Below are positions 12,081 through 39,130 of a stretch of DNA of 64,000 bases, in pieces. The notes below the pieces were generated by a model. It was not told where the DNA came from and ran no database searches. It was given only the letters and a program-made list of their open reading frames with translations. The DNA is from Bacteroidales bacterium UBA4295 (lineage in GTDB: Bacteria; Bacteroidota; Bacteroidia; Bacteroidales; Paludibacteraceae): positions 97,239-161,238 of the forward strand of contig DGVB01000037.1 in assembly GCA_002395805.1 (NCBI GenBank). The letters run 5' to 3'. Position 1 is the first letter of the stretch; each line of letters begins with the position of its first letter. A program made the translations under genes and the position numbers.

Positions 12081-12422
12081 ATGTATTTAAACATACTGAA
12101 ATCAAAGATTCACCGCGTACAGGTAACCGAGGCTAACCTCGATTATATCGGTTCGATCACTATTGACGAAGCGCTCATGGAGGCTGCCAATATCTATGCC
12201 GGCGAACGCGTACAGGTAGTAGATAACACCAACGGTGCGCGGCTGGAGACCTACGTCATCCCCGGCAAACGCAACTCCGGCTGCATTTGTATCAACGGCG
12301 CTGCCGCGCATCTGGTGAACGTAGGAGATACCGTGATCATCATGGCCTACGCGCTCATGACGCCCGACGAAGCGAAGGCTTTCAAACCCGCCATCGTGTT
12401 TCCTGTAAATAACAAATTGTAA
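12081..12422 (+). CDS. panD: aspartate 1-decarboxylase
   Basis: PanD converts L-aspartate to beta-alanine for pantothenate and coenzyme A synthesis. The 113-residue zymogen shows the self-cleavage site YIGSITID with Gly24-Ser25, where the pyruvoyl group forms, plus INGAAAHLV and [10 protein letters not shown]. Start at 12081 is preceded by a clear GGAGGA ribosome-binding site at 12073-12078, one of the few strong Shine-Dalgarno sequences in the window; upstream in-frame codons lie in the promoter. Normal length for the family (about 115-126). Confidence 0.95.
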
Positions 12423-12440
12423 ATAAAAAGATATTAAAAC

Positions 12441-12561
12441 CTTTTGAATGGTTTAGCGCATAGCGCTCCGGTGCTTTGCCTGTTAGTGCGTCTTTGTGAG
12501 CGAGCTCACAAGCTGCCCTACCATCCAAAACACCACTCTTACGAGTAAAATCATTCAAAAG
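12441..12561. repeat. 121-bp palindromic element A
   Basis: The ends CTTTTGAATGGTTT (12441-12454) and AAAATCATTCAAAAG (to 12561) pair over 14 positions, one of them G-T. Directly inside come a hairpin AGCGC-ATA-GCGCT (12455-12467), a perfect hairpin TGTGAGC-GA-GCTCACA (12495-12510), and ACTC-TTAC-GAGT (12535-12546). It has exactly the same length and outer layout as element B (13061-13181). It lies between panD and the GxxExxY gene. Confidence 0.75.
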
Positions 12562-12599
12562 CAATAAAAGGAAATAAATTTATCCTGTACACTGAAAAT

Positions 12600-13039
12600 A
12601 TGGCATATACCATTAAAACTGTTATAGACAACCATCCGGAATGGCTGAATGATCTGAAACAAAAATGCTATGCCATAAATGGTTGCTTGACGACTGTACA
12701 TTCTGATTTAGGCGCATTCCTTAATGAATATATATACCAAGATGCGCTACAGATTTTGCTTGATGAAAAGCAGATACCTTACCAACGAGAATACTACTTC
12801 AATATAGAATATCACGGCAAGAAAATTCCTCATAAGCATTATTTGGATTTCCTAATTAACGAAAGTATAATCGTTGAATGCAAAGCCGTAGAAAAATATG
12901 TATTGAACATAGACAGCAATTATGGAACTATATGCGGCTTACTGGTAAGAAAATAGGCATCTTATATAATTTCGGACCAGTAAAAGGGCAATCGGAACAC
13001 TATTATTTGGACCAGGATGGCACGATGTATATGTTTTGA
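12600..13039 (+). pseudogene. GxxExxY protein (PDDEXK_3 nuclease fold), frameshifted
   Basis: Read straight, the frame stops at 12956 after 118 residues. It carries the family's LGAFLNEYIYQDAL helix (E43, Y46; the motif's glycine position is Phe) and the PD-(D/E)XK-like core D83 with E93-C-K95. A -1 shift at the A5 tract 12892-12896 restores the family's expected continuation, ICIEHRQQLWNYMRLTGKKI then GILYNFG, ending at 13039 (about 146 residues). A missing A, a sequencing error or ribosomal slippage on AAAAA would each explain this; the straight-frame tail is not family-like. The gene is bracketed closely by palindromic elements A (39 nt away) and B (21 nt away), as if part of one inserted unit. 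The function of the family is not established. Confidence 0.7.
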
Positions 13040-13060
13040 GAATTTTATCTAAATTTATCG

Positions 13061-13181
13061 CTTTTGAATGCTTTGACTCGGTAGAGTCTGGAGTTTGAAG
13101 CGAAGAACTATCCGGGAGTTTACTTACGAAGAGTTATTAGCCTCAAAGTACATAAGAGCGAAGCGCAAAAGCATTCAAAAG
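13061..13181. repeat. 121-bp palindromic element B
   Basis: CTTTTGAATGCTTT (13061-13074) pairs with AAAGCATTCAAAAG (13168-13181) over 14 bp. Directly inside are GACTC-GGTA-GAGTC (13075-13088) and GCG-AAG-CGC (13158-13166). The interior sequence is unlike element A, but total length, arm sequence and the offsets of the flanking hairpins agree. It ends 34 nt before tgt, so it could also act as a tgt leader. Confidence 0.75.
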
Positions 13182-13215
13182 ATTTTATTTGGTTTTATAT
13201 ACTATAAACAAATAG

Positions 13216-14349
13216 ATGGCATTTTTCGAACTACATAGCGAGGCAAAGAGCGTAGGACCGAGAGCGGGTGTGATACATACCGACCACGGCGATATACTCA
13301 CGCCGATCTTTATGCCTGTAGGTACCGTCGGCACCGTCAAAGGTGTGCAGCGCAAGGAACTGGAGGAGGATATCAAAGCCCAGATCATTCTGGGAAACAC
13401 CTACCACCTCTTTCTCCGCCCGGGCACCGAGATCCTCCATAAAGCCGGCGGCCTTCATCGGTTCGAAGGATGGAATAGACCGATACTAACCGACAGCGGC
13501 GGATTTCAGGTCTTCTCGCTCACCGACATCCGCAAGATGACGGAAGAAGGTGTGCGGTTCTCCAGCCATATCGACGGACGCAAACTGCTCTTCACGCCGG
13601 AGAGCGTGATGGACATTGAGCGCGAGATAGGCGCAGACATCATGATGGCGTTCGACGAGTGCTGCCCCGGCACAGCGGATAAGAAATACGCCAAAGACTC
13701 AATGGAGCGCACCCATCGATGGCTCGACCGCTGCATCGCCCGTTTCGACGGCACAGCAGATCTATACGGCTATAAGCAACATCTCTTCCCTATTGTACAG
13801 GGCTGCACCTATACCGACCTGCGGCAAGAAGCCTCGAAACGACTGCGTGATCTGGACCGCGACGGCTATGCTATCGGCGGACTCGCCGTAGGCGAACCTA
13901 CCGAAGTGATGTATGACATGATCGAGGTTTGCAACGATATCCTGCCGGACAACAAACCGCGGTACCTCATGGGCGTAGGTACACCGTGGAATATACTGGA
14001 GGCTATCGAGCGAGGTATCGATATGTTCGACTGCGTGATGCCTACCCGCAACGGCCGCAACGGTATGATTTTCACCTGGAACGGCGTCATGAACCTGCGG
14101 AACAAGAAATGGGAGGACGATTTCACGGAACTTGATCCAAGCGGCACTTCGTATGTCGATCACGCATACACAAGGGCTTACGCGAGACATCTGATTCACG
14201 CGCAAGAGATGCTGGGACTGGAGATTCTATCTATCCATAATCTGGCATTCTATCTGGATCTGGTCACTCAGGCACGCGCACATATCCTCGCCGGTGATTT
14301 CAGCGCATGGAAAGCGTCCGTCCTGCCGGGAATAACCAACAGGTTATGA
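13216..14349 (+). CDS. tgt: queuine/preQ1 tRNA-guanine transglycosylase
   Basis: Tgt exchanges G34 for preQ1 in tRNAs with GUN anticodons (queuosine pathway). At 377 residues it is the usual length. Catalytic Asp residues sit in LTDSGGFQVFSL and FDCVMPTRNGRNG; GGLAVGEP is the substrate-binding loop. The region that carries the three zinc cysteines and the histidine in E. coli-type enzymes reads LDPSGTSYVDHAYTRAYARH here, with no cysteine; as far as I recall this is a Bacteroidota-wide variation rather than damage. No TAnnTTTG promoter is seen directly upstream, where element B lies. Confidence 0.95.
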   Translation: MAFFELHSEAKSVGPRAGVIHTDHGDILTPIFMPVGTVGTVKGVQRKELEEDIKAQIILGNTYHLFLRPGTEILHKAGGLHRFEGWNRPILTDSGGFQVFSLTDIRKMTEEGVRFSSHIDGRKLLFTPESVMDIEREIGADIMMAFDECCPGTADKKYAKDSMERTHRWLDRCIARFDGTADLYGYKQHLFPIVQGCTYTDLRQEASKRLRDLDRDGYAIGGLAVGEPTEVMYDMIEVCNDILPDNKPRYLMGVGTPWNILEAIERGIDMFDCVMPTRNGRNGMIFTWNGVMNLRNKKWEDDFTELDPSGTSYVDHAYTRAYARHLIHAQEMLGLEILSIHNLAFYLDLVTQARAHILAGDFSAWKASVLPGITNRL

Positions 14350-38242: not shown

Positions 38243-39038
38243 ACGCGACTGGCATATTCTCGCACGCGAGCAACGTCTCGGCGCAATCATTCTTTTCACT
38301 CTCGCCTTGGCCGGCTGGCTGTTCGTCGCTATCCGGCAATCGAATCATCCGGACAATACACCTCCCGATAAACCGGCTAAGAAATCCTGGGCGGAACGCA
38401 AAGACTCCATCCGTCTGGCGGATTCGCTGCGTTTTGTGCAATGGAAAGAAGAACGCGAAGCGCGTTATGACTCGTTTTTCGTAGCCGATTCTCTTCGCCA
38501 TGAGCAATGGAAGATTGAGCGAAAGGCACGATGGGATTCGATGCGAACAGAGCGGCAGGAACAATGGGACTCCATGCGTATTGCCGATTCGCTCTGGCGG
38601 GACTCGATGGGTATACGTTTCGTCAAAAAGATCAAGAAAGATACGATTCTCGATCTTAACCATTGCGACACAACGGAGTTGCAATATATACGCGGGATCG
38701 GACGTTATACGGCGGTGCAAATCGTCAGATACCGCGAGCAACTCGGCGGGTACTACAGCCCCGAACAACTAACCGACGAACCTTTCGCCAAACTCTCGCT
38801 CGACACGCTGCTGCATCATTTCACGGCGGACAGCCGCGATATACAGCTTCTCCCCGTTAACTCTCTCACAGCATCGGAACTGGCACAACATCCGTATCTT
38901 CGTTTCGAGCAGGCGAAGGCAATCTACACCCTTCGCAGGAAATACGTCTATCTCACCTCGCTTGACGACCTTCGGACTCTCCATGAATTGTCCGAAAAAG
39001 ACCTGCAGAGAATCGCTCCGTACCTCTCTTTTGAGTGA
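38235..39038 (+). CDS. membrane-anchored helix-hairpin-helix (ComEA-like) protein
   Basis: 267 residues. One N-terminal transmembrane helix (GAIILFTLALAGWLFVAI); then a highly charged helical region (residues 55-125) made of repeats of the type RWDSMRTERQEQWDSMRIAD; then two helix-hairpin-helix units (LDLNHCDTTELQYIRGIGRY; LPVNSLTASELAQHPYLRF) like those of ComEA or T2SS GspK. HhH units bind DNA backbone or mediate protein contacts. The start overlaps the xseA stop by 8 nt. A link to DNA uptake with the ComEC-like gene 10 kb upstream is possible but unproven. Confidence 0.75.
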   Translation: MAKRDWHILAREQRLGAIILFTLALAGWLFVAIRQSNHPDNTPPDKPAKKSWAERKDSIRLADSLRFVQWKEEREARYDSFFVADSLRHEQWKIERKARWDSMRTERQEQWDSMRIADSLWRDSMGIRFVKKIKKDTILDLNHCDTTELQYIRGIGRYTAVQIVRYREQLGGYYSPEQLTDEPFAKLSLDTLLHHFTADSRDIQLLPVNSLTASELAQHPYLRFEQAKAIYTLRRKYVYLTSLDDLRTLHELSEKDLQRIAPYLSFE

Positions 39039-39130
39039 TTTCGGGGAACATTTTGCACGTTTTCAAACAACATATATTTTAATATATTGATTTTAAGCGA
39101 TTTGCAGATTCTTTTTTTCAAAGCCTTTTT

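Follow-up and report, generated by a model that had tools for sequence, protein, structure and literature searches.

A GxxExxY gene between inverted cloverleaf elements at the panD-tgt locus of a Bacteroidales genome

Gene and elements between panD and tgt

The 64,000-nt stretch of contig DGVB01000037.1 of Bacteroidales bacterium UBA4295 analysed here (hereafter, the window) carries a gene of the GxxExxY family enclosed by two palindromic elements, A (12441-12561) and B (13061-13181), in the gap between panD and tgt. Both elements were found as described in the initial annotation: they comprise 121 bp each, have identical 10-bp ends and differ in a single arm pair, which is G-T in A and C-G in B. 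RNA folding gave z-scores of -5.9 for A and -3.7 for B, and none of 200 shuffles of either element folded equally well. In both folds, an outer stem of about 14 bp encloses three hairpins, of which the central one is long and the other two lie 5' and 3' of it; stem and hairpins meet in a four-way junction. A hairpin with a 3-nt loop comes first in A and one with a 4-nt loop comes first in B, so that A corresponds to the element of B in reverse. After reverse-complementing A, 41 of the 93 interior positions were equal to those of B in an ungapped comparison; in 5000 shuffles, the number of equal positions averaged 23.7 and never exceeded 39. Since this match exceeds all 5000 shuffles, A and B represent the same structured cloverleaf element in inverted orientation, and the earlier description of their interiors as otherwise unlike does not hold.

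The gene between the elements belongs to the GxxExxY/PDDEXK_3 family (TIGR04256, PF13366), as had been proposed, but is not intact. Its open frame of 118 amino acids (aa; 12600-12956, + strand) is shortened by a frameshift and covers positions 2-81 of the 117-position PF13366 profile (E 3e-19). Taken alone, this frame scores 69.9 bits against PF13366 (curated cut-off 22) and 69.7 bits against TIGR04256 (E 3e-19; curated cut-off 35). According to frame comparison, the remaining PF13366 piece (profile positions 77-109) resumes in another frame at 12884-12985 (+ strand), which ends with a stop codon at 13037-13039. The spacing of 21 nt given earlier between gene and B fits this other-frame stop, while the gap between A and the gene start measures 38 nt, not 39. 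An intact relative of 146 aa (L216) occupies the same panD-tgt site in genome G103. The motif E and Y, a D, ExK and QxxxY are invariant in all 35 aligned homologues; the window frame keeps E, Y, D and ExK, and QxxxY falls beyond the frameshift. The G of GxxExxY is replaced by F in both the window gene and L216.

To our knowledge, proteins of the GxxExxY family are common in bacteria and have no settled role. The protein structure model (predicted local distance difference test score, 88) gave 4ic1 as its best Foldseek match (E 3e-4), and the protein is predicted to be a small Cas4-like PD-(D/E)XK nuclease. Three proteins compared with the anti-phage defence models of PADLOC gave no match. PF13366 matches occur in 60 of 121 genomes of the genus and split by score into a canonical and a divergent group, the latter including the window gene. 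In the gene tree, 8 canonical rows are separate from the other 49. Membership in the divergent subfamily was assigned manually by bit score (84-113), with the broken copies in G000 and G001 added and short fragments uncounted.

The neighbours of the unit are those named in the initial annotation: panD, encoding aspartate decarboxylase (12081-12422, + strand; PF02261, E 9e-50), on the left and tgt, encoding queuine tRNA-ribosyltransferase (13216-14349, + strand; PF01702, E 3e-154), on the right. The flanks of both elements were compared by eye with the flank pattern of solo copies described below. The outer flank of A (12420-12440, - strand), which overlaps the panD stop codon, resembles this pattern in diverged form, being A-rich in window orientation and T-rich on the + strand of the element. 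The same pattern was recognized in the inner flank of A (12562-12585, - strand), which leads into the gene start, the inner flank of B (13040-13060, + strand) and the T-rich outer flank of B (13182-13206, + strand).

The cloverleaf family and its association with GxxExxY genes

The end motif, with at most one mismatch, occurs five times in the window against 0.13 expected. One occurrence, at 39028-39041, is an isolated one-mismatch match with neither a partner arm nor a cloverleaf fold. End-motif matches in the own genome (1.50 Mb, 61% complete) include seven further copies of the element, which is therefore not confined to the unit between panD and tgt. The nine own-genome copies were aligned with MAFFT, structure being ignored, and used to build the covariance model R1. 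Their consensus comprises 40 pairs, 20 of which show compensatory changes on both sides. Column shuffling gave a mean of 7.6 such pairs and never 20 in 500 trials, and sliding the partner by 1-3 columns left 3 to 7. Paired cells make up 93.6% of the nine-copy alignment versus 82.5% after shuffling and at most 50.6% after sliding. R1 identifies A as the left, reverse-oriented terminus (100.3 bits on the - strand versus 50.1 on the +) and B as the right, forward-oriented one (121.8 bits on the + strand versus 54.4 on the -), both elements being part of its training set, and the fold agrees with these orientations.

With R1 at E<=0.01, matches were obtained in 13 of 31 genomes, all among the 19 of the genus (own genome included), and in none of the 12 genomes from other genera of the order. 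The window gave no Rfam 15 match at the gathering score and eight loci gave none at E<=0.5; the present work describes an element family that these Rfam searches did not recognize. Aligned copies are 109-128 nt long, with the apex of the central hairpin as the most conserved stretch. The strand preferred by the model (+) folds better in 78 of 82 copies, by a mean of 7.9 kcal/mol, and G-U pairs number 195 on the + strand and 102 on the - strand; these 82 comparisons are not independent events because the copies are related. The copies also share flanks that are T-rich on the strand of the element and extend for about 13-20 nt ahead of the core and 24 nt behind it, so that the whole unit is roughly 160 nt long.

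The association of the element with divergent-subfamily genes was examined at 49 loci (40 fetched and 9 from the first genome search; L205 and L223, with two genes each, were counted once, and the fragment locus L036, which bears R1 matches, was set aside). R1 matches lie within 250 nt of the gene in 31 of them, and on both sides in 8. The outermost copies face outward, namely on the - strand at 20 of 23 left sides and on the + strand at 25 of 27 right sides. This count leaves aside the far-left copy of L210 and includes copies beyond a neighbouring gene (L224 far left; L206, L209, L222 and possibly L217 on the right). Only 2 of 24 control tgt loci had an R1 match anywhere at E<=0.05 (24 of 30 loci used; two occupied ones were left out). 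Canonical GxxExxY genes (29 of 32 loci used) had few and mostly weak R1 matches, of which seven of eight near-gene places obey the orientation rule, the exception being L174.

The orientation rule was also tested on mostly new GxxExxY loci from a named collection, 58 of 80 being used; most others repeat earlier loci. R1 placed 41 matches in 27 of these 58, all within 361 nt of the gene and on both sides in 12. Left copies were on the - strand in 17 of 18 cases and right copies on the + strand in 20 of 21 (p 3e-9). Two loci are near-identical to earlier ones (>=97% identity), namely L284 (98%; one counted side) and L346 (no counted side); with both dropped, 56 loci remained and 36 of 38 occupied sides were as predicted. 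The matching loci include records titled Prevotella, Prevotellaceae and Bacteroidaceae, and a whole-genome R1 search of six such genomes gave matches in four, one of which had 15. The R1 match at L329, a locus of Prevotella communis E15-14, is weak.

Across genomes, R1 matches occur in 32 of 39 with a divergent-subfamily gene versus 29 of 82 without one (p 2e-6; gene-adjacent matches included). The initial annotation had named palindromes scattered without a link to the gene as an observation that would refute it; this applies in part, the copies being scattered but also strongly associated with GxxExxY genes. The direction of the GxxExxY gene is that of its neighbours (>=150 aa) in 34 of 36 cases on the left and 33 of 36 on the right, which fits a dependence on read-through transcription.

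Site occupancy, solo copies and arrays

Of the 28 genomes with both genes, 26 have an empty panD-tgt gap, which ranges from -1 to 71 bp. Occupied gaps measure 796 bp in the window and 854 bp in G003, where the occupant has its own cloverleaf pair and is 40% identical to the window gene over the aligned part. Three sites (panD-tgt, recQ-rimO and a wzt-like one) each have occupants from separate GxxExxY clades; the gene names recQ, rimO and wzt are assumed from the sequences of these neighbours. The starred branches of the gene tree force at least two label changes for panD-tgt, at least two for recQ-rimO and at least three for the wzt-like site, with the caveat that long branches meet in this tree and three changes may represent one gain and two losses. 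Over 576 bp, the cassettes of L229 and L230 agree to 98%, although they come from two species and occupy dissimilar sites. Overall, a family of elements with a conserved fold forms outward-facing pairs around many GxxExxY genes across bacterial families, and their sites occur both empty and re-occupied. Of the possibilities raised for the locus in the initial annotation, that of a mobile cassette is supported by the mostly empty panD-tgt site, by its occupation by distant GxxExxY clades and by the outward pairs in other families. The intervening-sequence-like reading is weaker, since the sites are gaps between protein genes and not rRNA. The elements may also, as suggested there, be structures that the protein recognizes.

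Most copies examined are solo and lie in short gaps between co-directional genes. Among 70 copies at loci fetched for context, four overlap a long open frame and 43 have both neighbours within 400 nt; the gaps of the latter are co-directional in 39 cases, convergent in one and divergent in three. Relative to co-directional neighbours, the copy is on the same strand in 18 cases and on the opposite strand in 21. Identical copies were found at different places. In G071, two of them have differing surroundings, as inferred from contig ends. In G102, one element sequence occurs five times, three of these within units of about 277 bp that have inverted termini and exact 9-bp duplications.

The units of G102 (L244-L253) have inverted termini beginning with CATTGCTGTCCC or TATTGGTGTTGCG and carry the cloverleaf near one end. 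A search for their terminal motif in four genomes yielded seven sites and identified no autonomous partner; five sites are the units already found in G102 and two lie about 100 nt from R1 matches.

Other arrangements were also observed. In tandem arrays beside GxxExxY genes (L041, 1120-2600; L042, 1900-2800), cloverleafs alternate with another palindrome or motif, in which AAAAACGC / GCGTTTTT is frequent. On contig C20 of the own genome (L108, 6234-8811), a cloverleaf, always in the same orientation, comes after each of the ORF6N, DUF2442 and PIN-domain genes, which gives this array an integron-like look, resembling attC cassettes. In two species (L110, 2649-2770; L119, 8937-9058), the same gene gap contains cloverleafs that agree in relative orientation and are very unlike in sequence; the bounding genes are presumably dusB and a membrane protein gene.

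Interpretation as a mobile cassette

Comparison with the related loci identifies 12420-13206 as a mobile cassette copy that has decayed, with a GxxExxY gene lying between outward-facing inverted cloverleafs. Solo copies are distributed as dispersed non-coding relatives of this cassette in the same genomes, a relationship whose direction of descent we infer. The best explanation of these observations, although its chances of being right or wrong seem to us about equal, is a cassette with dispersed solo copies that follows a plan similar to that of repetitive extragenic palindromic (REP) sequences and is spread by its nuclease. One strand of the element would, when single-stranded, fold into the four-way junction, and the Cas4-like PD-(D/E)XK nuclease would act on this folded strand, cutting at or beside the junction. 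Short gaps between co-directional genes, in which insertions would be largely harmless, might then receive copies of single elements, or of the whole cassette if two elements act together.

REP sequences, including REP doublets forming hairpins (REPINs), with their REP-associated tyrosine transposases (RAYTs) are the nearest known plan. The shared features, as described in excerpts of PMC3116915, are palindromic extragenic repeats, dispersed copies and, next to repeat copies, a linked gene that encodes a DNA-cutting enzyme. Here, too, the gene is flanked by inverted repeat copies, and solo copies are dispersed between genes. Enzyme and element differ: REPs comprise 20-40 bp according to an excerpt of PMC3733652, whereas the present element has about 121 nt and a four-way junction, and RAYT is a Y1 HUH transposase, whereas the linked gene here is a PF13366 member of the PD-(D/E)XK type. 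The Y1 transposase profile (PF01797) gave no match in the element-bearing genomes G001, G002, G004 and G006.

Intervening sequences of 23S rRNA with the S23 protein are, according to PMC4990558, small selfish units whose ends are complementary and which contain a short open frame. The cassette shares these traits, but it lies between protein genes (panD and tgt), each of its ends has its own cloverleaf, and its protein belongs to another family. Palindromic structured candidates of 80-132 bp were reported for Bacteroidetes in a human microbiome screen (PMC8040213, in excerpt). Some of them could, by their description, be related to or overlap with the present element; the excerpt names no link to GxxExxY. 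The literature passages found describe no partner element for the GxxExxY family (TIGR04256/PF13366), the mentions of GxxExxY in the full-text excerpts are incidental, and none of the titles among the matches listed joins palindromic repeats with this family. The arrangement recurs in related bacteria of the gut and rumen and appears to represent a family of mobile DNA not described before. The GxxExxY protein gains a concrete candidate substrate, a covarying 121-nt element with a fixed orientation rule across families. If the nuclease does move the element, REP-like selfish DNA would have a new enzymatic basis.

Several observations weigh against spread by the nuclease. No R1 match was found near the gene in 18 of the 49 divergent-subfamily loci and in 31 of the 58 collection loci. 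Under the stricter nearest-copy rule, which 27 of 39 sides in the 49 loci obey, the orientation signal is weak; this is due to inner copies in the opposite sense, which frequently occur on the right. The 29 element-bearing genomes that lack a divergent-subfamily gene include G002, which is 90% complete and has 12 element matches; the nuclease is thus not always present with the elements, though the assemblies are incomplete. Weak Y1_Tnp (PF01797) matches were obtained in G000, G003, G007, G008, G009 and G018, the own genome being among those matching. Seven of the 15 copies examined in G102 reside within the units of about 277 bp, which resemble miniature inverted-repeat transposable elements (MITEs): they have terminal inverted repeats and are bordered by exact 9-bp target duplications, features characteristic of a different kind of transposase. 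A difference from MITEs is that the 58 copies tested from other loci and genomes have no duplication enriched outside the shared flanks.

The G102 units and the element-bearing genomes without the gene make a serious rival of the view that GxxExxY is a passenger: a separate transposase would move the elements, singly or as inverted pairs, and the gene would have been caught between two of them to give a composite unit. Elements in genomes without any PF13366 match, such as G002 and G006, are in line with this, as are the ORF6N, DUF2442 and PIN genes lying likewise between elements in L108. On this view, which we hold to be possible though unlikely, it is harder to see one gene family recur between outward-facing elements in both Paludibacteraceae and Prevotellaceae; the terminal-motif search that identified no autonomous partner and the solo copies without enriched duplications also speak against it.

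The operon bias, that is, the co-direction of GxxExxY genes with their neighbours and the 39 co-directional gaps among 43, is accounted for if the elements act in RNA. Inserted in sense orientation in operons, they would be processed, similarly to the excision of rRNA intervening sequences, or would insulate messages, the nuclease being carried along or regulated by them; the better folding of one strand would agree with this. Such a role does not account for the random strand of solo copies relative to neighbouring genes, the left and right copies of the cassette are on opposite strands, and the eight loci had no Rfam match; it appears improbable to us. Most improbable of all is that the elements are host-useful extragenic repeats which cluster beside a nuclease of defence or recombination for a reason other than movement, given that most genomes have empty sites, that the occupants of sites change and that PADLOC matched none of the three proteins.

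Spread of the cassette by its own nuclease also leads to a wider proposal, which we make tentatively and would sooner doubt than accept. Bacteroidales would then harbour widespread selfish DNA in which a Cas4-like PD-(D/E)XK nuclease, and not an HUH or DDE transposase, recognizes one folded four-way-junction strand, disperses solo copies into gaps flanked by co-directional genes and propagates itself as a cassette that includes an inverted pair of elements. GxxExxY proteins at large, some with other flanking palindromes in other Bacteroidota, would be mobilising nucleases.

Two further arrangements of GxxExxY genes were recorded. In G111 (L223), a tandem pair of them, about 870 bp apart, lies upstream of a wzt-like ABC gene. 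At five loci (L176, L181, L185, L021 and L025), of which four belong to other families within the phylum, GxxExxY genes are located between other palindromic repeats, which are built on the short motifs CACAAAG, TTAACCACAGAG, ACGAAAGGCACGAAA, ACGGATT and CAGAATTT.
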